This document shows positions 42,257 through 63,687 of a DNA stretch of 64,000 nt, one piece after another. The notes beneath the pieces were generated by a model. The model worked only from the letters and a program-made list of their open reading frames with translations. It was not told the DNA's origin and searched no databases. The stretch is from IMG/VR virus record IMGVR_UViG_3300027969_000001, positions 1 through 64,000 of that record, one strand, 5' to 3'. The position numbers and the translations under genes are program-made. The first letter of the stretch is position 1, and each line of letters opens with the position of its first letter. This DNA is from a virus.

Positions 42257-42703
42257 CTAACGTGAGGGAGAGAACATGAATCTCAGAAAAAACGAAAAAT
42301 TAAACGGGGGCGCAGCGTACCCGAGAGTAATCCGAGACGATTTTCGCGGGGCTCCTATCAAGCCGAAGGAGTCAGAATCAAGCGGGGCTCTCTTGGGATT
42401 TTTGGTGGCGAGCGCAATCAACACTTTGGTCATTGACGGTGCGCTACACATCTTGCGCTCTGCTGGCGTGACAGAGGTGAGCCTGTCACTGTGGCAGACG
42501 CTCGGCTTGTCATCACTTCTCATGGTGTGGCGTGGCGTAGAGAGAGCCATGCGCCAGTAGCGATAGCGAGCGATTGACTTATCTATCACTGTACGGCTCT
42601 GTGTGAGCGTCACGGTAACGAGTTGAGTGAGAATGAGTAGTAGTGACAGAGCGAGCGTGTACGGCTCTGTGAGTAGCGCAAGAATGAATAGCAGAATCTC
42701 CAT
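42257..42703 (-). CDS. Overlapping leftward frame, N-terminal part possibly real
   Basis: The first 50 codons (MEILLFILALLTEPYTLALS..., with in-frame VIDKSIA from an ATAGATAAGT motif) look like a membrane protein and follow the upstream gene by 2 bp. The remaining codons are antisense to the gene at 42276 and have no protein-like character. Either a short gene with an unrecognised end or a chance frame. Confidence 0.3.
   Translation of the reverse strand: MEILLFILALLTEPYTLALSLLLILTQLVTVTLTQSRTVIDKSIARYRYWRMALSTPRHTMRSDDKPSVCHSDRLTSVTPAERKMCSAPSMTKVLIALATKNPKRAPLDSDSFGLIGAPRKSSRITLGYAAPPFNFSFFLRFMFSPSR
42276..42560 (+). CDS. Small membrane protein
   Basis: A 94-residue protein: basic N-terminal 35 residues, then hydrophobic helices SSGALLGFLVASAINTLVIDGALHIL and LSLWQTLGLSSLLMVWRGV. 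RBS GAGGGAGAG is strong. It follows a CATCCACCACCGTCA repeat. A leftward frame overlaps it and the two are unlikely to be both full genes. Confidence 0.6.
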   Translation: MNLRKNEKLNGGAAYPRVIRDDFRGAPIKPKESESSGALLGFLVASAINTLVIDGALHILRSAGVTEVSLSLWQTLGLSSLLMVWRGVERAMRQ

Positions 42704-42705
42704 GA

Positions 42706-42909
42706 CTACTGTCTATCAGCAAGTTCAGCAAGAACGGACATAATGTTATTGCCTTCATTCCACATCAGATTATCGTAGTCCTCGTACGCTTTCTGTGGCG
42801 TGTATGTGCCTGCGATTATCTCGTCTTGTATTGCAGAGTAGTATCTAATTGCGCTCGTAAGACTCGCCTGCAAGTCTGTTAGTAATTCTGATTCAGATGG
42901 CTCGGTCAT
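42706..42909 (-). CDS. Hypothetical acidic protein, 67 aa
   Basis: A helical acidic protein (LTDLQASLTSAIRYYSAIQDEII; NIMSVLAELADRQ). Poly-A/T rich RBS region (AAAGGATT). It lies after the two hairpins at 42982-43084, so may have its own expression. Confidence 0.5.
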   Translation of the reverse strand: MTEPSESELLTDLQASLTSAIRYYSAIQDEIIAGTYTPQKAYEDYDNLMWNEGNNIMSVLAELADRQ

Positions 42910-42981
42910 AAAAAATCCTTTTTTTGATTAGTAATAGATAAGTGTCAGATGTGGTACATGAATAGATAAGTGAAACGCCAA

Positions 42982-43084
42982 TGTCTCTCGGCAATGTGTA
43001 GTACCCACCAAAGGAGAAACACGATTACCGAGAGACACTAGCACCAGTGCCTCTGTTGGGAACAACCAAGAAACCAACAGAGGC
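42982..43084. terminator. Two strong stem-loops after the VWA operon
   Basis: TGTCTCTCGG/CCGAGAGACA (10 bp) and GCCTCTGTTGG/CCAACAGAGGC (11 bp, 14-nt loop) in tandem immediately past the VWA gene stop. They lie among ATAGATAAGT copies on both sides and are likely terminators or RNA-stabilising ends. Confidence 0.65.
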
Positions 43085-43097
43085 AGGGACTTATCTA

Positions 43098-44645
43098 TTA
43101 CTGAATGTTCACGCCCATGTGCTGACGATAAGTGTGAACGAACATTGACGGATACACGCTCTTTGGCTTTATGCCTTTGTTCATGTTGGACAGTTGCTCA
43201 ATCGCTTCCTCAATGTGTGGCACAACAATGTAGTTGTGTTTCATTGCGTAAGTTAGGCACTGCATAGCGAGCAGGTCTGTGTAACCATCACCTTCGCCAC
43301 ACACTCCACCGTCTGTAATCCAAACGAGAGGAGTGTTGCGATACTGGCGATTCTCTACGCCCCACACGATTGCAGGATAATCAACACCGTTTCCGTGTCC
43401 GTAAGGAATGTTCTCCAATGTCTCAATCATTCGTCCCTTATCAGCGATAATCCACATGTTCGCACCGTTCTTTTTGTGACGGTCTGAATAGATTGCCACC
43501 GTTGCGCCTTTTGCCAAATCTGTAATCTGCCAAATCTGCTCTTTGGTGAATGACATAGAACCACTTGCGTCAATGATGACCATGCCACCACTGCCACGAA
43601 CGGTCTTGTCAAATACTCGCTTTGCAGGGTCAGTCATGTAACGGTGCATACGGCGTGGTCTGCGCCCCATGTTCGTAGCAACACGCTTCTTGCCGATTGT
43701 GCCAGCGTGTAAGCGTGGCATAGGAACACGCTCAATGCGTAGTTCTGCCCACTTGCCAGTGCCACTGTGTGATGTTGGGGTAATGCTCTGATGAGGAATA
43801 CCTTTCTTGTCACCTTCCTCTGAATCGCCTTCGTTGGAATGGACTGCCGTAGCAGGGTCTTTCTCGCCTTCTTCGCCTTCGCCTGACTTATCTATTCCCT
43901 TTGCACCTGCACCAGCCTTGCCTTCTTTCTCACGCTCTTTTGGTGGTGGGAATGAAGCGAGCCTGTCCACCCATTCTGCGATTCTTTCTGTGTGAACGAA
44001 TCCGTATGGCGCAATGCCGTGATGTTCTGTTGTGTTGGCGAGAGAGCGTGTCTTGTGCGCTTTCTTCATCTCACGGACTGCTCGCTTGCTGATGTCAAGC
44101 AGAGCGTCACCCCATGCACGATTGTGCCTGCGAATACCGTTCAGGAATTGCTTGTGTCCAGCAGTGCCAGCAGTTGCGATTGCACCTGTTACTGCACCAG
44201 CCCAATCTCCAGTTTTCGCTAGGCGTTCTCCGTCATTGAGTTCTCCACCGTCAGCGAGATTCTTCTTCACATCAAATCCTGCCTCTTGGCAAAGAATGTT
44301 TATGCGTAATTCCTCTACAACGGTCAGTGCAGTAGCAGAAGCCATTTCACGAGCAACCCACATCTCAAATTGTTCAGAGTTTGGTGAAACTTTTGAGTGC
44401 ATGAGTTCATGCCCACGAATACAGCGAGCGAGTTCGTCCGTCTGTGACGGTGTGAACATTGTGCGAGTATTCAGGTCAGTGCTTGGCTCGCCTCTGACTG
44501 CTTGACATTCTTCTACTGTCCATCGTCCATGCGCTAAGTCTTTGCGCCCGATGAAGTTTGGCTCGGCTTTCGCCGTTCCCCCTGACTTATCTATTGACGA
44601 GGGGAACGGCTTACCAACGCTCTTTCGTGCTGGCTTGATACTCAT
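43098..44645 (-). CDS. HExxH metallopeptidase-VWA fusion, partner of MoxR-type ATPase
   Basis: A 515-residue protein. Residues 60-125 carry H79-E-L-M-H83 (CIRGHELMHSK) and a downstream glutamate pair in VVEELRINIL, a zincin-like site. A disordered acidic linker occupies 240-290. The C-terminal VWA domain has MIDAS D359-A-S-G-S363 (MVIIDASGSMS) and WITDGG (D445). Proteins of this plan pair with MoxR AAA+ ATPases as metal-dependent chaperone or protease systems; the ATPase gene is 2 bp upstream. Two ATAGATAAGT motifs fall inside the gene, both read as IDKSG. The stop is the TAA of a third copy. Confidence 0.85.
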   Translation of the reverse strand: MSIKPARKSVGKPFPSSIDKSGGTAKAEPNFIGRKDLAHGRWTVEECQAVRGEPSTDLNTRTMFTPSQTDELARCIRGHELMHSKVSPNSEQFEMWVAREMASATALTVVEELRINILCQEAGFDVKKNLADGGELNDGERLAKTGDWAGAVTGAIATAGTAGHKQFLNGIRRHNRAWGDALLDISKRAVREMKKAHKTRSLANTTEHHGIAPYGFVHTERIAEWVDRLASFPPPKEREKEGKAGAGAKGIDKSGEGEEGEKDPATAVHSNEGDSEEGDKKGIPHQSITPTSHSGTGKWAELRIERVPMPRLHAGTIGKKRVATNMGRRPRRMHRYMTDPAKRVFDKTVRGSGGMVIIDASGSMSFTKEQIWQITDLAKGATVAIYSDRHKKNGANMWIIADKGRMIETLENIPYGHGNGVDYPAIVWGVENRQYRNTPLVWITDGGVCGEGDGYTDLLAMQCLTYAMKHNYIVVPHIEEAIEQLSNMNKGIKPKSVYPSMFVHTYRQHMGVNIQ

Positions 44646-44647
44646 GG

Positions 44648-45373
44648 TTAGACCACCGAATCAACTGCGATAGCGTCAAGAATCTGCTTTGCTCGCTTGC
44701 CGAATGTGAGTTGGCATGCTCGTTCCATGCCTACGCTCTTACGCAACTTGTCAAGAGCCATAAATGCTCGCAACGAGATACGGTCATCGCCAGCGTCAGC
44801 CATACGGATTGCGTATCCACGCAAATCCTTTGACAATGCGAGCAGAGCGTGTGGGTGTGGTTCGTTGATACGAATACGGATTGGGAAACGGTCAGCGAGT
44901 GCTGTTGGCAATTCGCCCATGTTCTCAATGTTCGTGGTCATAATTGCAGAGAAGCCTTCTTTGGGTCGGACTACCGAGCCAGTTTCAGGATGCTCAAATG
45001 AAGCAGATTCAGGTGAATCAAGCATGGCGAGAAGTGTTGCGAACACATCGCCACCAGCCTTGTCAATTTCGTCCACGATAAGTCGTGCGCCAACTGTGCC
45101 GTTGCCGTTCCATGCTTTGAGGGCAGAACCGTCAAGCCATTGGAAGCCACCGTTATTACTTGGCATGAAGCCACCAGTTACATCCATGTTTGTCATGTCC
45201 TCTGTGCAAACAAGACGGTATGCGCCTGCTTCCACATTGCCCATTGTCATACCTGCGTAGGTCTTGCCGATTCCAGCAGGTCCAAACAGGATTACTCGGT
45301 CAATGCCTGCATTGAGAGCGTCATTGAGGTCAGTCCAGCACTGAGGCAGGCTTTCCGTTGTTGTTGATTCCAT
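44648..45373 (-). CDS. MoxR-type AAA+ ATPase
   Basis: A 241-residue ATPase. Walker A GPAGIGKT (31-38), Walker B LIVDEID (98-104, D101/E102), sensor 1 N148 (MTTN), arginine-finger R162 (ALADRF). It is a single AAA+ module of the MoxR/CbbQ class, which remodels proteins together with VWA partners. Promoter-operator and three ATAGATAAGT copies precede it. It forms a two-gene operon with the metalloprotease-VWA gene. Target unknown. Confidence 0.9.
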   Translation of the reverse strand: MESTTTESLPQCWTDLNDALNAGIDRVILFGPAGIGKTYAGMTMGNVEAGAYRLVCTEDMTNMDVTGGFMPSNNGGFQWLDGSALKAWNGNGTVGARLIVDEIDKAGGDVFATLLAMLDSPESASFEHPETGSVVRPKEGFSAIMTTNIENMGELPTALADRFPIRIRINEPHPHALLALSKDLRGYAIRMADAGDDRISLRAFMALDKLRKSVGMERACQLTFGKRAKQILDAIAVDSVV

Positions 45374-45408
45374 CTCTATTCTCCTTGTTGTTGGTGAGTG
45401 GTGAACAC

Positions 45409-45437
45409 ACCATACCAGCGTAGGTACAGACCTACAA
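45409..45437 (-). promoter_or_regulatory. Promoter-operator of the MoxR-VWA operon
   Basis: TTGTAG, 17 bp, TATGGT, with GTACC in the spacer. The right half of the palindrome is diverged (GGTAT). Preceded by tandem ATAGATAAGT motifs. Confidence 0.75.
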
Positions 45438-45593
45438 ACCTGACTTATCTATTCAGTAGAGACTTATCTATTCAGTATCAGAAGCGCACCACTTATCTAT
45501 TCACTCTCCACTTGTGGGCAAGCGAGCGAGCGAGTGCGCCAGCGCAAACTTTTTTATCTCTACCCCCATGCTCGCCACACGCCCTTCTGCGTT

Positions 45594-45628
45594 GGAGCCC
45601 CGATGTTGCCGAGCAGTGCCGGGGCTCC
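45594..45628. terminator. GGAGCCCCG hairpin
   Basis: GGAGCCCCG/CGGGGCTCC, 9 bp, between the end of the 45663 gene and the MoxR promoter. Confidence 0.7.
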
Positions 45629-45662
45629 TATGGGAAAGGGGACTTATCTATTACAGATAGTT

Positions 45663-46145
45663 TTATTTTTCTCGTTTGGGAACCATAAGAACTTCCCATA
45701 GTCCATTTTTGATTTTGCGAAATAATGGAGATTCTTTGAGGTAGGTCAAAGTTGTCTGGTAAGAGAATCCTGATTGTTCTGTGAGTTGGTCAGATGTAAA
45801 TTGCTCTGCCTGATGTTCGCTTGACCACTGCTCAAATGCTGACCACTTATCTTTGCGCTTCTCTGTGCGTTCTACTTCTACCTGTGCGTCAGATAGTCCG
45901 ATGAATGTTGATAGAAGGTACTTTGATACTTCTGCCTGCACCGAGTATGTACTTAGGTACGATTGTGGTACACGCTGTCCACCTTCTCGTTGCCAAATCT
46001 GCAATACATAAAGTCCTCTGTTTATTTCAGAAACATAAGAAACTTCCGAGAACGGAACTGCTGTTGCGTTTTTGTATTTTTTGAGAAGCACTGCCCAATG
46101 TTCTTTGTGTACTTCTTTGATTAGGTCATCTGTAATAGTTTGCAT
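45663..46145 (-). CDS. Hypothetical protein with C-terminal HTH-like region
   Basis: A 160-residue protein. The C-terminal part, FTSDQLTEQSGFSYQTTLTYLKESPLFRKIKNGLWEV, resembles a winged helix; the rest is mixed. Upstream is an AT-rich 80 bp with one ATAGATAAGT in the + sense. No family recognised. Confidence 0.5.
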   Translation of the reverse strand: MQTITDDLIKEVHKEHWAVLLKKYKNATAVPFSEVSYVSEINRGLYVLQIWQREGGQRVPQSYLSTYSVQAEVSKYLLSTFIGLSDAQVEVERTEKRKDKWSAFEQWSSEHQAEQFTSDQLTEQSGFSYQTTLTYLKESPLFRKIKNGLWEVLMVPKREK

Positions 46146-46225
46146 TTTTTCCTTTTTTTTGCAGTTTCTACCGTTTAGTTTTTTTCTAAAAAATCGTTTT
46201 TTTGATAGATAAGTAAGTTGGGCTG

Positions 46226-46435
46226 TTAGTCAATAACAACCCAACTGTCCTCTCCCTTGATTAGTCCGAGACTAGACCCACTATCCCACTGCACAAACAT
46301 TGTTCCTAGTGAATCAAAGTCGGTAATGACCCCTTCATCTCCTTTGGATAGTTTGGTGTGAATGTCAGATGTGTAAATCAGCCTGATTCTCCTGCCAATA
46401 AGTGCTTCTAGTCCTGCTGACAACTTATCTATCAT
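46226..46435 (-). CDS. DUF4314-like protein
   Basis: A 69-residue protein: GRRIRLIYTSDIHTKLSKGDEGVITDFDSLGTMFVQWDSGSSL and EDSW fit DUF4314 (G.rI.Li...D....G..G.V...D..G...V.WD.G..L), a small beta-barrel of unknown role. Start codon and residues 1-5 (MIDKL) come from an ATAGATAAGT motif. Confidence 0.7.
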   Translation of the reverse strand: MIDKLSAGLEALIGRRIRLIYTSDIHTKLSKGDEGVITDFDSLGTMFVQWDSGSSLGLIKGEDSWVVID

Positions 46436-46590
46436 GCTGGCTCTTTCTCTTGTAACGCGATGATTCGCATGTCTAATAGAAAATCTGTCATTTCTAATGA
46501 CGAAACAATGTCTCTGCCTGAACAGTGGGAGATTGCTTTGTCAATCAACAAGACGATTGGTGACTTATCTATTACAGATTCTTCACTCAT
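46432..46590 (-). CDS. Small conserved hypothetical protein
   Basis: A 52-residue protein overlapping both neighbours. Residues 6-10 are VIDKS from an ATAGATAAGT motif. The rest, LIDKAISHCSGRDIVSSLEMTDFLLDMRI, is a helical pair common in actinobacterial and phage small proteins. Confidence 0.65.
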   Translation of the reverse strand: MSEESVIDKSPIVLLIDKAISHCSGRDIVSSLEMTDFLLDMRIIALQEKEPA

Positions 46591-46826
46591 TCTGCGTACC
46601 CGTAAATAACCATGTCAAGTTCGTTGCCTTCTTCATCGGTGTACTTCTTCTTTCCCTCTCCTGCACAGTCGTCAAAGTATTCATCGGCTTCCAACATAAT
46701 CATTTCCATGATGTCATCAAAGTCGGGCTTCTCATCGTTGTCCTCTCTGAATCGCTTTGCCGTTTCTGCCACATCAAATGTGACAGTATTGGTGCGAGTT
46801 ACTGTGATTGTTTTTGGCTCAGACAC
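46587..46826 (-). CDS. Hypothetical acidic protein
   Basis: A 79-residue protein. Its GTG start is inside an AATAGATAAGTG sequence that also ends the upstream gene. Strands then acidic helix (ITVTRTNTVTFDVAET; DIMEMIMLEADEYFDD). Unknown. Confidence 0.6.
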   Translation of the reverse strand: MSEPKTITVTRTNTVTFDVAETAKRFREDNDEKPDFDDIMEMIMLEADEYFDDCAGEGKKKYTDEEGNELDMVIYGYAE

Positions 46827-46830
46827 TTAT

Positions 46831-47499
46831 CTATTCCTCATCTTTCTTTTTCTTAGCGTTACCAAGTAGGTCGTGGTAACGGTGAGCAACTACGGCGAGT
46901 TTCATGTAGGCAGTGGTAGCACCCATAGCCTCAACCATGCGTCCGTACTCCTGACCTTCTTTTACTTCGCTTACATCTGCCATGTAATCTTCTTCCGAAT
47001 ACACAGGAACTCCAAAGTCATCGTAGCGATACATTTGAGTAGCACTACCAATCAACGAACCATCCCAGTCCATGCCAGTAACAACGATTGCTTCACGGAC
47101 TTCTGAAAAAGGATTCTCTGAAAAGTCTTTCTGCATTTCGCCACGCTCAAAGTCAATTTCTTCTGATGTGTCTGCACTACGGCAGAAACCCTCTACACAG
47201 AGAAAGAGGAAAGAGAACTCACGGATAGGCATAGCCTTGACTACATCTTCGTACGCCTCTAATACATCTTCACGGTGAATGAGTGGAATCATTGCAATCT
47301 TGTATGGAGAAGATAATTCGTTTTCTTCCTGATACTCAACTGCATCTTCGTCATCGCTCTTGTAAGCAACGAGCATGAGTGGGGGAGTGTCTGTCATCCC
47401 CTCGTCTTTGCACATTTGCTCTTTGGCGTACTTAGTACGGTCAAGAACATCCAGCATTATTTTTGACATTTCTTCTGAAATGGTTTCGTTGATAGCCAT
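46831..47499 (-). CDS. Hypothetical protein, 222 aa
   Basis: Start MAINETISEEM after AAGGAGAAA. Mixed alpha/beta with LMLVAYKSDDEDAVEYQEENE, REFSFLFLCVEGFCR and a basic tail. Ends with GAA-TAG of an ATAGATAAGT motif. First gene of the unit driven by the promoter at 47531. No family recognised. Confidence 0.6.
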   Translation of the reverse strand: MAINETISEEMSKIMLDVLDRTKYAKEQMCKDEGMTDTPPLMLVAYKSDDEDAVEYQEENELSSPYKIAMIPLIHREDVLEAYEDVVKAMPIREFSFLFLCVEGFCRSADTSEEIDFERGEMQKDFSENPFSEVREAIVVTGMDWDGSLIGSATQMYRYDDFGVPVYSEEDYMADVSEVKEGQEYGRMVEAMGATTAYMKLAVVAHRYHDLLGNAKKKKDEE

Positions 47500-47530
47500 T
47501 GGCTTTCTCCTTGTTGGTAGGTGTGCAGTC

Positions 47531-47559
47531 ATCGTACCAGTACAGGTACAGAACTACAA
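47531..47559 (-). promoter_or_regulatory. Promoter-operator for the 47499 unit
   Basis: TTGTAG, 17 bp, TACGAT; palindrome GTACC-TGTACT-GGTAC. One of the best matches. Confidence 0.85.
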
Positions 47560-47766
47560 CTATCCAAGCAACCCCTGAATGGGGAGACTTAGTGCGTCAC
47601 TTAGCGAGACAAGAGTGTCCACGCTCGGCGAATAATGTTGGTTCTCAATACGGTTCACCGTTTTTCGTTCCAGCCCTGCTCGCTTTGCTAGTTCCTCTTG
47701 TGACCAGCCTCTTTCTTTTCTTTCAGTTTTTAGCCGTGTGGCAATTACTTCTGTTGCGTTTCCCAT
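47560..47766 (-). CDS. XRE-family HTH regulator
   Basis: A 68-residue single-domain repressor: VIATRLKTERKERGWSQEELAKRAGLERKTVNRIENQHYSP is a classic XRE helix-turn-helix (WSQEELAKRAG / ERKTVNRIENQ), with DTLVSLSDALSLPIQGLLG after it. It is the best visible candidate to bind either the GTACC-N6-GGTAC operators or the ATAGATAAGT sites; nothing shows which. Lies in the same unit as the 48457 gene. Confidence 0.85.
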   Translation of the reverse strand: MGNATEVIATRLKTERKERGWSQEELAKRAGLERKTVNRIENQHYSPSVDTLVSLSDALSLPIQGLLG

Positions 47767-47800
47767 GTTGTTTCCTCTCTTGGGGACTTATCTATTTAGT

Positions 47801-48457
47801 TCAGAATGACGGAATGAAACTCTGAAACACCTTTCTCCTTTTATTTCCCCTTCTCCATGCCACATACTCCCTGATAGTGGCATCCAAATCTATGTCATGC
47901 TGGTCAGTGATGAGATTGCGCCATTCACTTTGTGCTTCGTAGAACTCGTCATACAACTCGTCAAGCCCTGATTCTGACGCTTTTTCGTACATCTGTATCA
48001 GTTCAGGTGGTTGCGTCATGTCACACATGTCCTCTGCAATCTTTTCGCCGTCACAGTAAAGTTCCCAACCAGCGTAGAAATCTGCTTCTTCTGTGCAACT
48101 GTACCCAAATACCAATTTAGGGAACTGCTTGCTGATGTTCTCAATCAACTTGTCACATGGACTCCATGCGCTCGTGTAGCGCAGATGTAGTGGGTACGAA
48201 TCTTTATCGTCAATCTCTATGTCACAAGCACCCCACTTGCTTCCCCACACGCCAAGTGCGCCACCAAAGAAAGAATCAAGTTTGTCCACCCATTCACTCT
48301 CGTCAGGGATAGGTACTAGATGGTTCATGTCATAGTGAGCGTTTATCTTGCGCCCTAGTTCATCATAATCTTCGGGCATTGAGATTGCTTTGAGAAACTT
48401 ACGAGTTTCTGTTTTGTTCCCTGCAACAACAAGGTTTGAGAAGCACCAGTTTGGCAT
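47801..48457 (-). CDS. YubB/Api92-like ferredoxin-fold protein
   Basis: A 218-residue protein: MPNWCFSNLVVAG start, ALGVWGSKWGACDIEI and LRYTSAWSPCDKLIENISKQFPKLVF, then a cysteine/tryptophan end. This is the DUF1281/YubB pattern found on plasmids and phages; role unknown. RBS GAAAGGA precedes ATG. A promoter of the repeat family is upstream. Confidence 0.75.
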   Translation of the reverse strand: MPNWCFSNLVVAGNKTETRKFLKAISMPEDYDELGRKINAHYDMNHLVPIPDESEWVDKLDSFFGGALGVWGSKWGACDIEIDDKDSYPLHLRYTSAWSPCDKLIENISKQFPKLVFGYSCTEEADFYAGWELYCDGEKIAEDMCDMTQPPELIQMYEKASESGLDELYDEFYEAQSEWRNLITDQHDIDLDATIREYVAWRRGNKRRKVFQSFIPSF

Positions 48458-48491
48458 GGTAGTCCTTTCGGGTTAGTGGTGGTATGCAATG

Positions 48492-48520
48492 AGCGTACCA
48501 GCACAGGTTCAGAACTACTC
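48492..48520 (-). promoter_or_regulatory. Promoter-operator for the YubB-XRE unit
   Basis: GAGTAG, 17 bp, TACGCT; palindrome GAACC-TGTGCT-GGTAC. Confidence 0.75.
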
Positions 48521-48660
48521 GGGGGGACTTATCTATTACTCATCCACCACCGTCATTGACTAACGAGCAAAAGTTTTCTATCTCATCCCCCAAGATTTTT
48601 GACTTTTCTATCTCTACCCCCCATGCGCCGATTTTTTCTCTTTTTCGCCGTGTTCCGAAG

Positions 48661-48693
48661 GAGCCCCGACCAGTTTGGTTCGCCCCGGGGCTC
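48661..48693. terminator. GAGCCCCG hairpin
   Basis: GAGCCCCG/CGGGGCTC, 8 bp, followed by TTTT on the + strand. Confidence 0.7.
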
Positions 48694-48715
48694 TTTTGGG
48701 AAAAGGACTTATCTA

Positions 48716-49483: not shown

Positions 49484-49487
49484 TTAT

Positions 49488-55850: not shown

Positions 55851-55851
55851 G

Positions 55852-56612: not shown

Positions 56613-56630
56613 CATCGGGCGCAAGGTCAA

Positions 56631-56662: not shown

Positions 56663-56681
56663 GAGACTATCTAGCACTTAT

Positions 56682-57116: not shown

Positions 57117-57148
57117 GGTTACCCCTTCATGGTTGTTTGACTACTCGC

Positions 57149-57177
57149 ATAGTACCATCGTAGGTACGGAACTACTG
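57149..57177 (-). promoter_or_regulatory. Promoter-operator for the 57116 gene
   Basis: CAGTAG, 17 bp, TACTAT; GTACC-TACGAT-GGTAC. Confidence 0.8.
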
Positions 57178-57292
57178 TGGGACTTATCTATTACCGATAC
57201 GCTCACGCCTCGCCACTCGGCAACCCCCGATAGTTGGGCTTATCTATCTCAACCCCCGTCACAGCCTCGGAGTCTCTCGGACTCTTACGGTT

Positions 57293-57327
57293 GGAGCCCC
57301 GTTCGCGCTCGGTTCCCTCGGGGCTCC
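57293..57327. terminator. GGAGCCCCG hairpin at the divergence point
   Basis: GGAGCCCCG/CGGGGCTCC lying between two outward promoters, so not acting as a simple 3' terminator. Confidence 0.65.
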
Positions 57328-57417
57328 CATCGGGAAGGGCGCTTCCCTACTCTTGGGGGTCGTGATAAAAAAGTTTCATCTAATCGGTCAGGGTCTTTCT
57401 TTCATAGATAAGTCTCG

Positions 57418-57446
57418 GTGGAGGTTTGTACCTCACCATGTACTCT
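57418..57446 (+). promoter_or_regulatory. Promoter-operator for the 57488 gene
   Basis: GTGGAG, 17 bp, TACTCT; GTACC-TCACCA-TGTAC. Confidence 0.75.
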
Positions 57447-57487
57447 GTGTCCAGTTGGGGGATGGTCTCCCAGCAGGAAGGGATGCC

Positions 57488-58009
57488 ATGTTCGGTGTTG
57501 TTCAGCAGTTGGAGGACGAAGAGGTGCAGGCTCGCACTGTGCTTTTCGTTTACGAAGTCAAAGAGGAAGGCGATGCACTCGCTGTGGTTGGAACATTCCA
57601 CCCCAACTTCTTTGACCAAGACATTGTCAATCTCATCAAGGAAGAGCGCCAGTGCTCTTACAACCAAGCAGAGGACGACGAGCAGGGTTCAGCGATGGAA
57701 GCCTGTGGTTGCATTTGGTGCCTCACCGAAGGCACGGGCTATCTCAATTGGGGAAGCAACGGATGGGATGACATTCCGAGAGGGTTCGCATTTGTGCAGT
57801 TTCCAAAAAGCGCTGCAATCGCCGAAGGCTCGCTCATTCTTGTTGAAGGCAAGTGGCTCTCCGAGGACATCCACGGCGTTTCGGAAACCAAGTCCGTTAT
57901 CAACTACGAGACCACAATGGTGGAGACCTCGCATGGCACCTACCCCGAAGCCGAGTGCCTTGCAGTTGAGCATTGGGAGTTGCTACCAGCACTCCCAGCC
58001 AATCGGTAA
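57488..58009 (+). CDS. Hypothetical protein, 173 aa
   Basis: Start MFGVVQQLEDEEV after GGAAGGGATGCC. Beta-rich acidic protein (ARTVLFVYEVKEEGDALAVVG; CGCIWCLTEGTG; LLPALPANR). CIWC may bind metal. Stop and second stop are TAATAG of the motif. Confidence 0.6.
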   Translation: MFGVVQQLEDEEVQARTVLFVYEVKEEGDALAVVGTFHPNFFDQDIVNLIKEERQCSYNQAEDDEQGSAMEACGCIWCLTEGTGYLNWGSNGWDDIPRGFAFVQFPKSAAIAEGSLILVEGKWLSEDIHGVSETKSVINYETTMVETSHGTYPEAECLAVEHWELLPALPANR

Positions 58010-58025
58010 TAGATAAGTCATCAAC

Positions 58026-58058
58026 CACTCTGAGTGAAAGAAGAACTCGCTCAGAGTG
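58026..58058 (+). terminator. Hairpin after the 57488 gene
   Basis: CACTCTGAG/CTCAGAGTG, 9 bp, 15-nt loop. Confidence 0.6.
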
Positions 58059-58068
58059 ATGACCAAGG

Positions 58069-58099
58069 AAGCCCCGGCTCGCTCGTTCCCAACGGGGCT
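58069..58099. terminator. AAGCCCCG hairpin
   Basis: AGCCCCG/CGGGGCT. Confidence 0.65.
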
Positions 58100-58200
58100 C
58101 CCTTGCGCTTCGCTTGCTTCGGTGGTGGGGGTCGTGATAAAAAAGTCTGCTCCTCGTTGCGAGGGAGAAGCTCGGGTTATCTGTAATAGATAAGTACCCC

Positions 58201-58229
58201 TAGCAGTTCTGTACCTATTGGGTTACTAT
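58201..58229 (+). promoter_or_regulatory. Promoter-operator for the 58268 unit
   Basis: TAGCAG, 17 bp, TACTAT; GTACC-TATTGG-GTTAC. Confidence 0.7.
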
Positions 58230-58267
58230 TGAGTGACCACATAACACTTTCCTGAAGGGGGAACTAA

Positions 58268-58681
58268 ATGTCAAAAATAGATTATGACGGAATACAACTT
58301 TCGTACGAGGCTCAAGTTATTGAGTCAGATAAAAAGTTGCTTGATGCTTTACTTGATGCCGTGAAAGATGAAGAACTTGCACCTTTCACATTCCACATGG
58401 AGTGGGTCATCTGTGATTACTGCCGTGGCAACGGTGGACACTCTCGCCGTTTCGGTGCAATGAGTTCAGAAGAGTTTGCAGAGTGGAGCGATGAGTCTCG
58501 TGAAGCGTACTTGCGTGGTGCTTACGATGACCGTTGTGAAGCGTGTGATGGAAGTGGAAAGGTCTATGAGATGAACGAAGGCGCATTGCCTGAAGAAGTT
58601 ATTGAGTTCATTGACAACTACCGTCAGTACGCATTTGATAGCGCATCTGAAAGTCGTGCTGAACGAATGGCAGGTTGCTGA
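58268..58681 (+). CDS. Zinc-binding protein with DnaJ-type CxxCxGxG repeats
   Basis: A 137-residue protein. CDYCRGNGGH and CEACDGSGKV are CxxCxGxG knuckles as in DnaJ and similar small zinc proteins. The helical ends are acidic. RBS GAAGGGGGAAC. It could be a chaperone-like adapter. Confidence 0.65.
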   Translation: MSKIDYDGIQLSYEAQVIESDKKLLDALLDAVKDEELAPFTFHMEWVICDYCRGNGGHSRRFGAMSSEEFAEWSDESREAYLRGAYDDRCEACDGSGKVYEMNEGALPEEVIEFIDNYRQYAFDSASESRAERMAGC

Positions 58682-58920
58682 TGTTTACTTACCGTGTAAC
58701 TGTTCAGGTCACGCTTGATGTTGAGGCAGAAGATGACGATGGAGCAATGGCAGTAGCAATGCAGAATGTCAGTGCTCGCATAGGCGATGACCGTACAACA
58801 CCTCTCCACGAAAGAACTGATGCAATGTGGGTGACAGGCATTGCTGAAAGAGATTACGAATACTTTTGTTACAAGCAACCATTCCCACTATGGGTAATAG
58901 ATAAGTCAGAGGACTACTAA
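58681..58920 (+). CDS. Hypothetical protein, 79 aa
   Basis: MFTYRVTVQVTLDVEAEDDDGAM then a helix; ATG overlaps the upstream stop. An ATAGATAAGT lies in frame near the end (LWVIDKSEDY). Confidence 0.6.
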   Translation: MFTYRVTVQVTLDVEAEDDDGAMAVAMQNVSARIGDDRTTPLHERTDAMWVTGIAERDYEYFCYKQPFPLWVIDKSEDY

Positions 58921-58922
58921 TC

Positions 58923-59213
58923 ATGAATAACAAAAGCGATAGTTATTACACACTTAGGTCTGTCATTCGTTTTATCTTTTGGGGAACGATACTCGCAGTA
59001 ATCATGTGGATTGTTACAACATCTATTGCAGTTTTTGCATCTGATGAAACACCCGATTGTGATGTGACATTAGAGCGTGACTTCACATGGAACGCTCGTG
59101 AGTTCGCAGTGCTCAATCCAACCAAGACGCTTGCAGATTGCCGTCATTACCAAAGCGTTGTTCTCAATGAGAACGGCACATGGGAATGGTACGACCCATA
59201 CATGGACTCATAG
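58923..59213 (+). CDS. Membrane/secreted protein, 96 aa
   Basis: An N-terminal membrane helix (VIRFIFWGTILAVIMWIVTTSIAVFA) then an extracytoplasmic-type domain with two Cys (DCDVTL, DCRHYQ). Unknown. Confidence 0.6.
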   Translation: MNNKSDSYYTLRSVIRFIFWGTILAVIMWIVTTSIAVFASDETPDCDVTLERDFTWNAREFAVLNPTKTLADCRHYQSVVLNENGTWEWYDPYMDS

Positions 59214-59225
59214 AAAGGATTGATT

Positions 59226-59300
59226 ATGGTTTTTTTATTTGTTATTGCAGTAACGCTTGCAGTTCTAATAGCAATAGTTCGTGACGATAGATGGTGGTGA
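59226..59300 (+). CDS. Small membrane peptide, 24 aa
   Basis: MVFLFVIAVTLAVLIAIVRD ends DRWW: one helix. RBS AGA-AAGGATTG. Follows another membrane gene by 12 bp. An ATAGATAAGT r copy follows. Confidence 0.45.
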   Translation: MVFLFVIAVTLAVLIAIVRDDRWW

Positions 59301-59314
59301 ACACTTATCTATTA

Positions 59315-59626
59315 CTAATCAAACGAACGAGACACTGGTAAGTCGCATTGCAAACAATCGTAATGTGCAAGTGTCTTTTTTGTTTTTCTCTTGACGATGT
59401 ACGCAGATGAAAGATGACCACCACCTTCGTACTCACTCAACAATGCTTGATGCGTTTTTATCTCTTCGCTGTTGAGACCTAAGTCCTCGGCGCAGTACGC
59501 ACAGATGTAGCCATCGGCAATCTCGTCATAGATGACAGATGTAGTCATGTCATCTTGCTCGTACTCATCAGAGAACTGGTTGGTGCTAGTTGCAAAGTAC
59601 GGTTGGAGTGCTTTTGTTTTTTTCAT
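59315..59626 (-). CDS. Zinc-site hypothetical protein
   Basis: A 103-residue protein with ICAYCAEDLG and CLQCDLP, a four-Cys zinc site, and a basic KRKTKKT. Leftward, convergent with the preceding unit. Promoter-like TTGACA (- strand, about 59728) upstream. Confidence 0.6.
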   Translation of the reverse strand: MKKTKALQPYFATSTNQFSDEYEQDDMTTSVIYDEIADGYICAYCAEDLGLNSEEIKTHQALLSEYEGGGHLSSAYIVKRKTKKTLAHYDCLQCDLPVSRSFD

Positions 59627-59925
59627 TTTTTCCTCTCACCTCTTATGAGGTTGCTTGTGTTTTACAATCGGACATTTTTTCTTACATCTTTTACAAGAGT
59701 CCTTGCATCTCTTTATGTCAAAAGTTTTTGTCCGTTACCTATTAGACGTGTCATCGTCTCCGTTTCTGAAAACGATGCTCGCAGTTGATAGAAGCGTCAT
59801 CTTGATACGAAAACGAAACGACTTATCTATTCAGTAATAGAAAGCAGGCTTCGCTCGGAGAAAGTAAGCGAGTCAGCAACTTTTCTATCTCTACCCCCGT
59901 TGCAAGGCAGTTATGCCAGCGCATG

Positions 59926-59960
59926 GGAGCCCCGATGCTGTTCGCTCCTAACGGGGCTTC
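59926..59960. terminator. GGAGCCCCG hairpin
   Basis: GGAGCCCCG/CGGGGCTTC. Confidence 0.65.
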
Positions 59961-60024
59961 TACCTCGCGCGCGTGACGCCGAGAGCAGCAAGCTTGGGGG
60001 GTCGCGATAAATAAGCAAGATTTC

Positions 60025-60051
60025 AGCTGGGAGCTGGGAGCTGGGAGCTGG
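60025..60051 (+). repeat. AGCTGGG tandem repeat, four copies
   Basis: Three full and one 6-bp copy of a 7-bp unit just before an ATAGATAAGT. Confidence 0.85.
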
Positions 60052-60146
60052 CGAAATAAGGGATAGATAAGTGGTTTAAATCTTTTACAAAACTGACCGA
60101 TTGCAAAACGCAACTCCTTGCAAATAAAGGGTTTGCGGTCGTAAAA

Positions 60147-60175
60147 ATGTAGGTTTGTACCTACTTTTGTATAAT
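60147..60175 (+). promoter_or_regulatory. Promoter-operator for the 60220 unit
   Basis: ATGTAG, 17 bp, TATAAT: perfect -10, which confirms where the -10 falls in the whole family. GTACC-TACTTT-TGTAT. Confidence 0.85.
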
Positions 60176-60219
60176 CCGCGCACGCCCACAACCACCACAA
60201 CAACCCACAAGGAGCCCAC

Positions 60220-60321
60220 ATGAAGCCACACGATAAGAACAGCCGCCCACCTACCTCATTCGTAGGCGGCGCAGGTCATTGGAATAAGCGCGGCAAATCA
60301 AAGCCAAAAGATAAAAAGTAA
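60220..60321 (+). CDS. Small basic protein, 33 aa
   Basis: MKPHDKNSRPPTSFVGGAGH then WNKRGKSKPKDKK. RBS AAGGAG. Disordered and basic, possibly nucleic-acid binding. First gene of its unit. Confidence 0.6.
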   Translation: MKPHDKNSRPPTSFVGGAGHWNKRGKSKPKDKK

Positions 60322-60348
60322 TTCGGACAAAGGAAGGAACCACACCCG

Positions 60349-60957
60349 ATGAACACACACCCACACCACGCAGCAGTAGTAGACGCAATCAAGGCGCTAC
60401 CTGCTTACACAGACCCGCAGACATTCTTTGAGTCAGAACTAGCCGAGTGCTACTCAGACGAGGAGCTTGTAGAAACATTCGGCTGGGACGGAGACAAGGC
60501 GCTCACAATCAAGCAGGCGCTCAAAGCAGTCAAGGAGCTTTGCGAGCTTCGTCAAGATGTTTACGGCTGGATTATTGAGGAAGGCGACCGAGAGCGCGAA
60601 GCAGAGCAAGAGGCGTACAAGCGCTGGCGCGAAGAACAAGAGGCAGCTAGCCGTTGTGGTTGGCTCGTAGAGCGCTCATGGGAAGCAGCTTTCCCATTCG
60701 TGCCGAACCCCGAATACACAGATGAGGAGAACGCCGAACACAGGCAGTGGCACGGTGAAAGCCTCGGTGAACGAGCAGCAGAGTCAGGCAACCGCTACGC
60801 AATCGTTGATTGTGGTGCGAAGCTCGCAGATGTCATTCGCAACGGCGTGCGAGTTGGTTGGGAGTGCGAAGCAGGTCACCGTTCCATCAGCATGGAACAC
60901 ATGACGCAAGAGGAGCAGGACGAGCAATACCGCTTGGATTACGAGGACAGCTACTAG
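60349..60957 (+). CDS. Hypothetical protein, 202 aa
   Basis: A helical protein with a central charged coiled coil (EEGDREREAEQEAYKRWREE). RBS AAGGAAGG. Unknown. Confidence 0.6.
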   Translation: MNTHPHHAAVVDAIKALPAYTDPQTFFESELAECYSDEELVETFGWDGDKALTIKQALKAVKELCELRQDVYGWIIEEGDREREAEQEAYKRWREEQEAASRCGWLVERSWEAAFPFVPNPEYTDEENAEHRQWHGESLGERAAESGNRYAIVDCGAKLADVIRNGVRVGWECEAGHRSISMEHMTQEEQDEQYRLDYEDSY

Positions 60958-60982
60958 CCACCTCTTGGAATAGATAAGTTCT

Positions 60983-61021
60983 CCCCACGCCCCCACCCCC
61001 CCTTCCATCAGGGGCGTGGGG
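60983..61021 (+). terminator. Terminator after the 60349 gene
   Basis: CCCCACGCCCC/GGGGCGTGGGG, 11 bp, then TTTAT. Confidence 0.75.
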
Positions 61022-61035
61022 TTTATCGCAGGGAC

Positions 61036-61067
61036 AAGCCCCGTTCGGGTTCGTTTCCGTCGGGGCT
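61036..61067. terminator. AAGCCCCG hairpin
   Basis: AGCCCCG/CGGGGCT. Confidence 0.65.
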
Positions 61068-61088
61068 CTCATCGTTAGCGCGAAATGT

Positions 61089-61117
61089 CCGTAGGTCTGT
61101 ACCTCCCCGGGTACTCT
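61089..61117 (+). promoter_or_regulatory. Promoter-operator, leaderless unit
   Basis: CCGTAG, 17 bp, TACTCT; GTACC-TCCCCG-GGTAC. Only 6 bp separate the -10 from the ATG. Confidence 0.75.
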
Positions 61118-61123
61118 GTGGCC

Positions 61124-61453
61124 ATGACAAAAAAACACTTCACCGATTACACCAAAGCCGAAGCATGGGCCGAGAAAAACAACCTCGCCCTAGAACCCAT
61201 CGGAACCTGCTGGGAGGAGCACACAGTGGCCTCATGGAAGAGCGATACCACCCGTATCGAAATATGGATTCAGGAGATGGAATACGCAGCAGAGCACGAG
61301 CGTGGCGGATACATCCCTTGCCTTGTGGATTGCCCTGTAGTCCTCGTGTGGGACGGCCTAGAGGCCAATGCGCCCTACACGCTCCACCCTGACTTCTGCA
61401 CGCTCACAGAGGCTCGCAAGGGCTTCGATGAGTTGGTCAGGCAAGCGAGTTAG
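61124..61453 (+). CDS. Hypothetical protein, 109 aa
   Basis: Start MTKKHFTDYTKAEAWAEK just after the -10, so the mRNA should be leaderless. Alpha/beta (YIPCLVDCPVVLVWDGLEA). Unknown. Confidence 0.6.
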   Translation: MTKKHFTDYTKAEAWAEKNNLALEPIGTCWEEHTVASWKSDTTRIEIWIQEMEYAAEHERGGYIPCLVDCPVVLVWDGLEANAPYTLHPDFCTLTEARKGFDELVRQAS

Positions 61454-61470
61454 ACACCCGGTGAACTTTT

Positions 61471-61520
61471 TCTCCCCGGCACGAAATTCCCTGCCGGGGA
61501 GAAATTCCGGCGGGTTTTTT
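61471..61520 (+). terminator. Strong terminator after the 61124 gene
   Basis: TCTCCCCGGC/GCCGGGGAGA, 10 bp, followed by a second AAATTCCGG/CCGGAATTT helix and T6. Confidence 0.8.
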
Positions 61521-61570
61521 CTTCACCGGAATTTCTTGCCGGAATCGGAAAGATTTTGCGCTAATGGTAG

Positions 61571-61613
61571 AAGCCCCGTTCTCGTTCGTTCTCTATTGTT
61601 TCGAACGGGGCTC
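61571..61613. terminator. AAGCCCCGTTC hairpin
   Basis: AGCCCCGTTC/GAACGGGGCT. Confidence 0.7.
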
Positions 61614-61668
61614 TCATCGGCTCGGGTGTTCGGCGCGAACAACACGCGATGGGGGTTGTGATAGATAA

Positions 61669-61697
61669 GTGTAGGTCTGTACCTGACCAGGTACGAT
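61669..61697 (+). promoter_or_regulatory. Promoter-operator for the 61738 gene
   Basis: GTGTAG, 17 bp, TACGAT; GTACC-TGACCA-GGTAC, a near-perfect palindrome. Abuts GATAGATAAGT. Confidence 0.85.
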
Positions 61698-61737
61698 GCT
61701 TGTACGGCGGGAAGTACCCGCCCATGAAGGGAAAGTC

Positions 61738-62019
61738 ATGAAGCAAGTAACAATCACATGGAAAGCGTTCGGCGAACCAACATCGGCTGCACTCGCGCTT
61801 GACACGAGCGCAAGCGCGTTGGAGATATGCGATGCAATATTCCACCAAACGAATGTTTACGCTGGTCCGATATGGGACGAACTGGAACCGCTCCTGCCAG
61901 CCACACGCACACACACTGCGCTTTCAGTTGGAGACGAAGTCACAGTTGATGGCGAAGTGATTCGGTGCGAGCCAATGGGTTGGGCTACCAGGTTCATCGC
62001 TGACGCTCTTACTGAATAG
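61738..62019 (+). CDS. Hypothetical protein, 93 aa
   Basis: Start MKQVTITWKAFGEPTSA after GAAGGGAAAG. HTALSVGDEVTVDGEVIRCEP is a small beta barrel-like stretch. Stop TAG in ATAGATAAGT. Confidence 0.6.
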   Translation: MKQVTITWKAFGEPTSAALALDTSASALEICDAIFHQTNVYAGPIWDELEPLLPATRTHTALSVGDEVTVDGEVIRCEPMGWATRFIADALTE

Positions 62020-62037
62020 ATAAGTCCCCCCAGCGGA

Positions 62038-62064
62038 GAACCCCACCTCACTCGGGTGGGGTTC
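62038..62064 (+). terminator. Terminator after the 61738 gene
   Basis: GAACCCCACC/GGTGGGGTTC, 10 bp, then TTCTTCC. Confidence 0.75.
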
Positions 62065-62080
62065 TTCCCGTTCTCAAGAC

Positions 62081-62111
62081 AGCCCCGTGGCTGTTCGGCA
62101 CGAACGGGGCT
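62081..62111. terminator. AGCCCCG hairpin
   Basis: AGCCCCG/CGGGGCT. Confidence 0.65.
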
Positions 62112-62173
62112 CTCATCGGCGAGCGAGCGAGAATGATTGGGGGTCGCGATAGAAAAGTTTCCAAAAGAAAAGG

Positions 62174-62202
62174 TTGCAATCCTGTACCTGCTGTGGTACG
62201 AT
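62174..62202 (+). promoter_or_regulatory. Promoter-operator for the 62232 gene
   Basis: TTGCAA, 17 bp, TACGAT; GTACC-TGCTGT-GGTAC. Confidence 0.85.
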
Positions 62203-62231
62203 TTCATCAGACCAGTAGAAGGGGTTGACCA

Positions 62232-62531
62232 ATGAGGAAAGAGACACGCTCTCTCAAAAAGAAAGCCGAAGGCCTAGGCATTTCGGTAGATGAATTAGTT
62301 GAGGAAATGGAAGTCGGGAATCCCGACAAATCGTTCGTCATAACTGTGGCCTTTGACCGATACAAAGATTTGCGTTCGTTCGCAGACGAAATCGCTCAGA
62401 GAATGGGTCTCGCAATTTATCAGGCCGATTCACTTGACCACGAATACAACGGCAGTGTGCGAGACGGAATGTTCGTCCTGCGAGACCCGAACGGTTTCCA
62501 CGGCAAACCAGACCATTGGAGGGTTGACTAG
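62232..62531 (+). CDS. Hypothetical protein, 99 aa
   Basis: RBS GAAGGGG. LKKKAEGLGISVDELVEEM then FVITVAFDRYKDLRSFADEIAQRMG. Unknown. Confidence 0.6.
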   Translation: MRKETRSLKKKAEGLGISVDELVEEMEVGNPDKSFVITVAFDRYKDLRSFADEIAQRMGLAIYQADSLDHEYNGSVRDGMFVLRDPNGFHGKPDHWRVD

Positions 62532-62550
62532 TGGTGATAGATAAGTCCCC

Positions 62551-62579
62551 TTGTAGTTCTGTACCTTATGTAGTACGCT
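62551..62579 (+). promoter_or_regulatory. Promoter-operator for the 62606 gene
   Basis: TTGTAG, 17 bp, TACGCT; GTACC-TTATGT-AGTAC. Confidence 0.85.
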
Positions 62580-62605
62580 CTGTTCAGACCACGGAAGGGG
62601 TTTCC

Positions 62606-62908
62606 ATGATAACAACGGAAAAATTCGAGATGCTCAAAGAGCAACTGGAAGCATCAACAGACCAGATGAAGAAAATGGTAGAGGCGCTAAGAACGCCAAC
62701 ACCATGCGATTGCTGCTTCTCAGACGAGGAGAACGCTGAGAATTATCGCGATTTTGAGAACGCAGTTCGCGACCTCTCTAACGAATGTCAAGAGATTGCG
62801 ATGAAGGCCTACGATTGCTACATGGCCATCACCCGCGCTCCACTGGAAATTGCGCTCGCACAACTGGATGCGATGCAAGAGGGCTACCGCCTCCTCGCCG
62901 AACAATAG
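62606..62908 (+). CDS. Helical hypothetical protein, 100 aa
   Basis: Start MITTEKFEMLKEQLEAST after GAAGGGG. Helices throughout; CDCCFSDEENAENYRDF could bind metal. Unknown. Confidence 0.6.
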   Translation: MITTEKFEMLKEQLEASTDQMKKMVEALRTPTPCDCCFSDEENAENYRDFENAVRDLSNECQEIAMKAYDCYMAITRAPLEIALAQLDAMQEGYRLLAEQ

Positions 62909-62921
62909 GTAATAGATAAGT

Positions 62922-62950
62922 CCCCCGAGCACCCCCCGCTCGGGGGATTT
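62922..62950 (+). terminator. Terminator after the 62606 gene
   Basis: CCCCCGAGC/GCTCGGGGG, 9 bp, then ATTTTCTTT. Confidence 0.8.
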
Positions 62951-63004
62951 TCTTTGCCCGTGACCCAGCCCGTACTTGTAATAGATAAGTCCCCTGTTGT
63001 GATG

Positions 63005-63046
63005 AAGCCCCGTCTTCGGCGGAGTCCGTTCGTCTCCGACGGGGCT
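63005..63046. terminator. AAGCCCCGTC hairpin
   Basis: AGCCCCGTC/GACGGGGCT. Confidence 0.7.
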
Positions 63047-63092
63047 CTCATCGGCGAGCGAGCGAGAGTGCATTGGGGGTCGTGATAAAAAA

Positions 63093-63121
63093 GTGTAGGT
63101 CTGTACCTAGTGCAGTACAGT
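63093..63121 (+). promoter_or_regulatory. Promoter-operator for the second DUF3846 gene
   Basis: GTGTAG, 17 bp, TACAGT; GTACC-TAGTGC-AGTAC. Abuts a GGGGGT element. Confidence 0.8.
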
Positions 63122-63149
63122 GTGGTCATACCAACGGAAGGGGTACGAG

Positions 63150-63656
63150 ATGCCAAAGACGGCTCTACAAGTAAAGACCACAGGTGAAGTAGTAATGCTT
63201 GACCTAGAGGGTGACGAACTAGCAACACTGCAGAGTGCAGTGGGCGGATACATTGAAGCAATAAACTTCACCAACTCGCTGACTATGTGGTGCAACGAAG
63301 AAGGCAAACTAGACGGTCTCTCGCAGAACATCATTGCTCAACACTTCTATGACAATGCATACGGTGCAGGGCGTGACATTATCGTGGGTGATGTTGTATT
63401 CACTGGCGGTGCTGATGATGAAGGTGACACAATGGGTCTCCGTGAAGAATTGGTCAAAGACATTCACGAAGTAGCCGAGCGTCTTGCTCGCTCCGCAGTG
63501 TTCATCACCAAGGCAGAGACGAAGAAGGTCATGAGCTGGCAAGACCATCTCGGTGACGCTCCTATGACAGAGGAGAATGTGTGGCAGGCAATTGCTGATG
63601 CGAATGACCTTGACTACGACGAAATTGCTGACGGCGATTTATTTGAGTGGCTCTAG
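63150..63656 (+). CDS. DUF3846 protein, second copy
   Basis: A 168-residue protein, start MPKTALQVKTTGEV after GAAGGGG. LQSAVGGYIEAINFTNSLTMWCNEEGKLDGLSQN then IIVGDVVFTGGADDEGDTMG is the DUF3846 pattern. Paralogue of the gene at 50912, with an extra helical C-terminus. Confidence 0.75.
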   Translation: MPKTALQVKTTGEVVMLDLEGDELATLQSAVGGYIEAINFTNSLTMWCNEEGKLDGLSQNIIAQHFYDNAYGAGRDIIVGDVVFTGGADDEGDTMGLREELVKDIHEVAERLARSAVFITKAETKKVMSWQDHLGDAPMTEENVWQAIADANDLDYDEIADGDLFEWL

Positions 63657-63687
63657 CGCTCAATTATTGGTAATAGATAAGTGCCAA

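Follow-up and report, generated by a model that had tools for sequence, protein, structure and literature searches.

A one-directional array of stoperator-like sites, nearly private in sequence to each lineage, in a large and probably actinobacterial aquatic phage

Why would a phage carry dozens of exact copies of one asymmetric 10-mer in a single block of its genome, nearly all reading the same way as the genes around them? The question is raised by positions 1 to 64,000 of the virus record IMGVR_UViG_3300027969_000001 (hereafter the window; the full record has 158,714 bases), in which the 10-mer ATAGATAAGT occurs 59 times, compared to a mean of 0.16 and a maximum of 2 in shuffled sequence. 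A preliminary description, made from the sequence alone, had given about 58 copies, far above chance and nearly all right of 42.5 kb, and the count bears this out: 56 of the 59 lie within 42577-63682, with the remaining three at 7600, 35715, and 40575. The full record holds 66 copies, none of them past 72.3 kb. The repeat is strikingly exact, with 63 exact copies in 42.5-72.5 kb against 9 one-mismatch neighbors. While the 10-mer thus stands as a motif, its extent needs slight correction, as the consensus extends to [GT][TG]AATAGATAAGT[C/g], a site of ~13 bp that is asymmetric and reads TAATAGATAAGTC in this phage. As set out below, the array is probably a set of stoperator-like operators, which would be bound by a repressor that the phage encodes and that is specific to its lineage.

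The copies follow the direction of the genes. Up to the strand switch near 57.2 kb, 33 copies are on the minus strand and 9 on the plus strand, whereas beyond it the plus strand has 12 and the minus strand 2 (Fisher p = 3e-5), and the array therefore turns with the strand switch. When the scan was extended to the whole genome, 46 copies were codirectional with predicted genes and 11 opposed (p = 3e-6), in agreement with the orientation with transcription reported initially. Genes were called with a simple hexamer-based caller, so the placement classes of single copies, listed below, are approximate. There are two main positions, at or just after stop codons and ~60 to 75 bp ahead of the next start. 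Among 37 tandem codirectional intergenic copies, 17 overlap a stop codon or lie within 15 bp after it. The copies ahead of starts are mostly ~5 bp upstream of the -35 element of a recurring sigma70-like promoter (TTGTAG-N17-TACGAT), whose -10 is TGG-extended and which contains the inverted repeat GTACC-N6-GGTAC. For 15% of copies, a promoter-like match follows within 60 bp, compared to 2% at shifted positions, with an offset of mostly 11 to 13. The gene ends and promoters singled out in the preliminary description are indeed among the places where the sites sit. GC-rich hairpins follow some of the gene-end copies, although their overall enrichment is modest (11/66 versus 4.6%). A small number fall just within genes and are translated there as IDKS, and a few are in inverted or reversed positions.

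42572-63682: main array, 56 exact ATAGATAAGT copies (35 minus, 21 plus)
7600-7609, plus: outlying copy
35715-35724, plus: outlying copy, on the stop of 35083-35718 (HslV-like)
40575-40584, minus: outlying copy, codirectional, within 39997-40662
42577-42586, minus: array copy
42934-42943, plus: reversed copy, upstream of 42706-42909
42962-42971, plus: reversed copy, upstream of 42706-42909
43089-43098, minus: on the stop codon of 43098-44645 (VWA/CobT-like)
43886-43895, minus: in-gene copy reading IDKS
44585-44594, minus: in-gene copy, 51 bases from the gene start, reading SIDKS
45443-45452, minus: directly upstream of promoter 45409-45438
45462-45471, minus: array copy upstream of promoter
45491-45500, minus: array copy upstream of promoter
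45642-45651, minus: past the stop of 45663-46145, ahead of a GGAGCCCCG..CGGGGCTCC hairpin
46205-46214, plus: reversed copy, upstream of 45663-46145
46423-46432, minus: on the start codon of 46226-46435 (ATGATAGATAAG)
46563-46572, minus: in the start of a short gene (VIDKS)
46825-46834, minus: spanning the stop of 46831-47499 and the start that follows
47786-47795, minus: past the stop of 47801-48457, ahead of the XRE gene
48527-48536, minus: directly upstream of promoter
48707-48716, minus: on a stop codon, ahead of a GC hairpin
49018-49027, minus: past the stop of 49036-49281
49482-49491, minus: spanning two genes
49993-50002, minus: past a stop and upstream of promoter 49959-49987
50529-50538, minus: array copy
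50583-50592, plus: reversed copy
50897-50906, minus: close to a gene start (SIDKSP)
51419-51428, minus: directly upstream of promoter
51955-51964, minus: 79 bp upstream of 51471-51875
52281-52290, minus: array copy
52327-52336, plus: reversed copy within a terminator-like hairpin
52905-52914, minus: directly upstream of promoter
53062-53071, minus: array copy
53111-53120, plus: reversed copy beyond a hairpin
53136-53145, plus: reversed copy beyond a hairpin
53730-53739, minus: 67 bp upstream of 53198-53662
53944-53953, minus: array copy
54377-54386, minus: close to the start of 54102-54392
55198-55207, minus: 71 bp upstream of 54827-55126
55467-55476, plus: reversed copy
55510-55519, plus: reversed copy
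55832-55841, minus: at the start of 55542-55850
56407-56416, minus: directly upstream of promoter
56479-56488, minus: at a predicted stop codon
56676-56685, minus: on the stop of 56682-57116
57182-57191, minus: final minus copy ahead of the strand switch, upstream of promoter
57404-57413, plus: first plus copy past the strand switch
58009-58018, plus: on the stop of 57488-58009
58186-58195, plus: 72 bp upstream of 58268
58897-58906, plus: close to the end of 58681-58920
59303-59312, minus: past the stop of minus-strand gene 59315-59626
59821-59830, minus: minus copy right of the strand switch
60063-60072, plus: array copy
60970-60979, plus: past the stop of 60349-60957
61661-61670, plus: abutting promoter 61668-61697
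62016-62025, plus: on the stop of 61738-62019
62537-62546, plus: 5 bp past a stop, 59 bp ahead of the next start
62912-62921, plus: past the stop of 62606-62908
62981-62990, plus: array copy
63673-63682, plus: past a stop and upstream of promoter 63688-63716

Relatives of the phage were found through a 515-amino-acid array protein, at 47 to 100% identity. Those at 100% carry an identical array and probably represent this phage in other assemblies, whereas those at 64 to 65% have no copy of ATAGATAAGT but dozens of GAGTAGATAASTC or GGTGTAGGTAASTC. Nine related genomes of 145 to 170 kb, this phage included, were used for motif counts. All nine carry an array, and the motifs are nearly private to each lineage (GAGTAGATAASTC, TGTAGGTAAS, GGTAGATAAGT, AATAGATAACT, ACTAGATAAGT, AATTTGGTAT, and others). 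The motif-by-genome matrix is accordingly nearly diagonal, with 55, 79, 41, 75, 46, 56, 42, and 29 copies of the own motif and almost 0 elsewhere; the counts of 41 and 75 come from two genomes with one common motif, and the small off-diagonal overlaps comprise 16 copies of AGTAGATAA[GC]T in G012 and 8 of GGTAGATAAGT in G003. A G[AG]TA core is common to many of the lineage motifs but not to all, G016 being an exception. Summed over eight genomes, the codirectional copies outnumber the opposed ones 302 to 63, and G015, whose motif is quite different, has a ratio of 24:0. In six relatives, 7 to 17 copies per genome overlap a stop codon or lie within 15 bp after it, compared to 3 of 21 in G015, while no promoter-proximal placement with a TTGTAG-N17-TACGAT-type pattern was seen in G013 and G014. 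Sites are also conserved in syntenic positions, as the one after the stop of 45663-46145 is kept in G000, G003, and G005, in the motif of the respective genome. In G003 (L042), inverted motif pairs 7 to 10 bp apart stand at gene ends (103485-103514 and 119830-119856) and are capable of forming hairpins, e.g., GAGTAGATAAGCACCCCCCGCTTATCTACTC.

For a wider sample, the conserved AAA protein encoded next to the 515-amino-acid protein yielded 80 viral loci, to which six loci from a bacterial collection were added. Among the 77 loci of at least 9 kb, 50 have a strong array, these falling into more than 15 sequence families, while 10 have a weak one and 17 none on the available stretch. These contigs are partial: the 17-kb AAA locus of G016 shows little, whereas its whole 148 kb has its own one-strand array with the motif CCCCTAACCGACAAAT. 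The preliminary description had pointed to related phages having the genes without the motif as evidence to the contrary, yet such a case is seen in none of the full genomes, which have arrays with private sequences, and 17 of the 77 partial loci show no array on the available stretch. No near relatives were found in isolated-phage and plasmid collections. The isolated actinomycete phage DSL-LC01 (L218) has ~16 to 17 copies of a different repeat, AAAGATGTTATA, in 40 kb, which could represent either a promoter family or a further array.

Cluster A mycobacteriophages Peaches and Trixie served as positive controls for the counting pipeline. Their known stoperators were recovered (GCGATGTCAA 14 times and AATGTCAAGT 10 times), and TGTCAAG is distributed by strand 17:1 in Peaches and 19:0 in Trixie. 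Stoperators are described as sites of 13 to 14 bp that lie in one direction relative to transcription, are intergenic or overlap gene termini, and have a lineage-dependent consensus (PMC13313380, PMC6550527, PMC9283540), a description that matches the array seen here. The likeness to L5-type stoperators, with a different sequence, that was drawn initially holds for every feature visible in sequence: the sites are short, asymmetric, multicopy, and one-directional, they are placed at gene termini and promoters, their consensus changes among relatives, and Peaches and Trixie give the same picture.

In the mechanism that we favor, a phage-encoded DNA-binding protein would recognize the asymmetric ~13-bp site TAATAGATAAGTC. 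At promoter-side copies, ~5 bp upstream of the -35 element, the bound protein would block initiation, while at gene-end and gene-start copies it would stop RNA polymerase coming from upstream in an orientation-dependent manner. Jointly, the sites would keep the whole block of small nonstructural genes silent, be it during lysogeny, on superinfection, or up to a fixed point in the infection. From one lineage to the next, the sites and their reader would change in step, giving each lineage its own specificity, much like immunity groups.

Which protein might read the sites? Among the candidates are three proteins.

47560-47766, minus: XRE protein put forward in the preliminary description, recognition helix invariant
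41853-42227, plus: protein with an HA domain and a sigma-r4-like helix-turn-helix (HTH) at the array edge, conserved
32242-32757, minus: candidate reader, fast-evolving putative winged-helix protein of 171 amino acids

It is very unlikely that the XRE protein reads the sites, because its recognition helix, RKT[VI]NRIEN, is essentially the same in ~45 loci with differing motifs (partial Mantel r = -0.50). Two DNA-binding modules are present in the HA and HTH protein, whose HTH is similar to the HTH of the cluster A repressor only in the way that generic HTHs are. Its DNA-contact stretches are conserved, also in relatives whose short contigs showed no array, and r is -0.02; it more likely reads a conserved element than the array. 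The protein at 45663-46145, which has a winged-helix-like end, was also rejected (r = -0.24), and the genes that are closer between G005 and G011, which share a motif, than to G003, whose motif differs, include no convincing DNA-binding protein. The protein at 32242-32757 has an orthologue in all seven fully read genomes with GATAA/GGTAA arrays, and homologues in 16 of 30 further records. It is among the fastest-evolving orthologues, with 52 to 60% identity in a trio whose other proteins are ~80% identical and 23 to 32% between this genome and the others. The predicted structure is a winged helix (predicted local distance difference test, 78) resembling PadR/MarR-type folds, with no significant match, and sequence searches of PDB and PHROG with this protein gave nothing useful. 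It is a possible though doubtful reader of the array.

A number of points weigh against the stoperator-like reading. Protein binding, transcription arrest, and a role in immunity are what we infer. No reader can be named with confidence, the protein at 32242-32757 being the best candidate found and a weak one: its distances follow motif distances with a partial Mantel r of 0.19, with p = 0.047 uncorrected for the ten candidates tested, and phages that have GAGTAGATAA in common have dissimilar recognition helices in its orthologues. When the Rep proteins Peaches gp68 and Trixie gp75 were compared to the nine genomes, no homologue was found (best E 0.2 to 0.3); the array may well work like stoperators, while its membership in a cluster A-type system is weakened by this failed test. 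About 17% of copies are reversed, and many of the array genes are individually promoted, whereas L5 has long operons. Neither a tyrosine integrase nor a serine recombinase was found in the nine genomes, although control genomes gave matches, and a ParA-like gene occurs in four of the nine (G003, G011, G012, and G016), with none detected in this genome. With no integrase, and a ParA-like gene in four genomes only, lysogeny, perhaps in plasmid form, is therefore unproven.

Four other explanations deserve weighing against repressor binding. First, the motif could be an activator or promoter element, where a phage activator or polymerase factor bound upstream of the -35 element would time the expression of the array genes by turning them on. 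The codirectional promoter-proximal copies, at a fairly fixed offset from conserved -35 and -10 elements, and the copies ~60 to 75 bp ahead of start codons are what such a factor predicts. However, such a promoter is missing downstream of most copies, many are on stop codons (some of these directly before GC hairpins), others are within genes, and the promoter at 47531-47559 has no adjoining copy, all of which makes an activator unlikely.

The preliminary description had itself named an RNA signal and a nucleoid-protein site as alternatives to stoperators, and both fit less well given the reversed copies, the copies before -35 elements, and the placement. As an RNA signal, UAAUAGAUAAGU in the transcript would be bound or cut by a phage factor that acts at gene junctions in processing, antitermination, or the control of translation. 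Although the copies are codirectional, sit at gene junctions, and provide stop codons in two frames, those near promoters are upstream of the -35 element and hence outside that promoter's transcript, and the 365 classified copies include 63 reversed ones and some inverted pairs; we consider this explanation rather improbable. More improbable again are partition or nucleoid sites, on which a centromere-binding protein would coat the region and segregate a plasmid-like prophage or organize the DNA. The ParA-like genes of the four relatives, the lack of a detected integrase, and the many copies within one 30-kb block are consistent with this, but such sites need neither gene orientation nor placement at stop codons and promoters, and no ParA was detected in this genome. 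The ParA-like gene is inside the array region in G003, G011, and G012 at least, that of G003 (L042) encoding a protein at 117302-117904 (plus) at a strand switch within the array. Finally, the sites could be recombination boundaries, homologous tags at gene edges that aid cassette shuffling and are homogenized by gene conversion, as tags lie at cassette edges, are homogenized lineage-wide, and stoperator-stoperator recombination is known in cluster A (PMC5712189), but this hardly credible explanation gives no account of 10-mer exactness in unrelated contexts, of orientation, or of copies within reading frames, and such recombination could be a by-product.

A second repeated element behaves differently from the array. 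The element, TCAATGACGGTGGTGGATGA-like, has seven exact GACGGTGGTGGA copies at 38643-53765 (minus), and its sequence is kept in the nine genomes, with 5 to 9 copies of GACGGTGGTGGA in each, unlike the private array motifs. As a guess, it may be read by the conserved HA and HTH protein at 41853-42227. Near-identical promoters at 45409-63716 precede many array genes, with GTACC-N6-GGTAC between -35 and -10, an inverted repeat that is possibly the operator for the XRE protein.

47531-47559, minus: member of the promoter family TTGTAG-N17-TACGAT with the GTACC-N6-GGTAC palindrome, no adjoining array copy

As regards the host, a WhiB-type protein is encoded at 36162-36512 (plus; PF02467, E 1.5e-14), and an actinobacterial (aquatic) host, from a group where stoperators are known, is therefore probable. 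Related contigs in bacterial collections come from draft genomes that belong to unrelated groups, Actinomycetota among them; they are probably misbinned phage and prove nothing about the host. The WhiB gene and an HslV-like peptidase gene at 35083-35718 (plus) are close together, as they are in DSL-LC01. At 43098-45373 (minus) there is a pair of VWA/CobT-like and AAA/CobS-like genes, the AAA/CobS-like protein being among the group's most conserved outside the virion genes. A tryptophan-halogenase-like protein (PHROG 2928, E 1e-102) is encoded near tail-fiber genes at 11647-13191 (minus), and three giant reading frames of 4,250, 2,645, and 3,369 amino acids (L009-L012) occupy record positions 79459-92211, 110339-118276, and 120118-130227 (minus).

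How does the array compare to known systems? No description of such arrays in large aquatic actinophages was found in the literature searched, which mostly excluded subscription papers. The SAS/ESAS repeats of cluster K are likewise 13-bp asymmetric sites in one orientation among nonstructural genes (PMC3203893), but they lie 3 to 7 bp before start codons and have a ribosome-binding core (AGGAG), whereas the array motif lacks an AGGAG core and sits at stops and upstream of promoters. The repressor of Streptomyces phage R4 acts both on an early promoter and on numerous intergenic sites (PMC10276819), although R4-type phages are temperate, have serine integrases, and carry eight or more sites per genome.

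The closest parallel is with cluster A mycobacteriophages (L5, Bxb1, Peaches, and Trixie) and Rhodococcus cluster CA, which share with this array short, asymmetric, multicopy, one-directional sites that are intergenic or at gene termini, some beside promoters, with a consensus that varies among related phages (PMC6550527, PMC13313380). Unlike in those clusters, motif diversity here is far wider, many small genes are individually promoted, and neither an integrase nor a Rep homologue was found. It is conceivable, and we put it forward tentatively, that a large family of non-integrating aquatic actinobacterial phages has dozens of private site sets, each with a fast-evolving non-Rep repressor, serving as a self/non-self code that silences a large accessory-gene block and defines many immunity groups, and that this evolved independently of cluster A. 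Syntenic genomes of this kind offer a natural series of site specificities for studying joint repressor-site change, as well as a sequence-only route to predicting the immunity groups of uncultured phages. Whereas stoperators have so far come from a few smaller groups of temperate actinophages, with genomes of about 46 to 53 kb and about 24 to 30 copies in clusters A and CA, the same design is seen here in aquatic phages of 145 to 170 kb, with 42 to 94 copies in the array-rich genomes, a far wider range of sequences, and a putative reader different from the Rep of cluster A.

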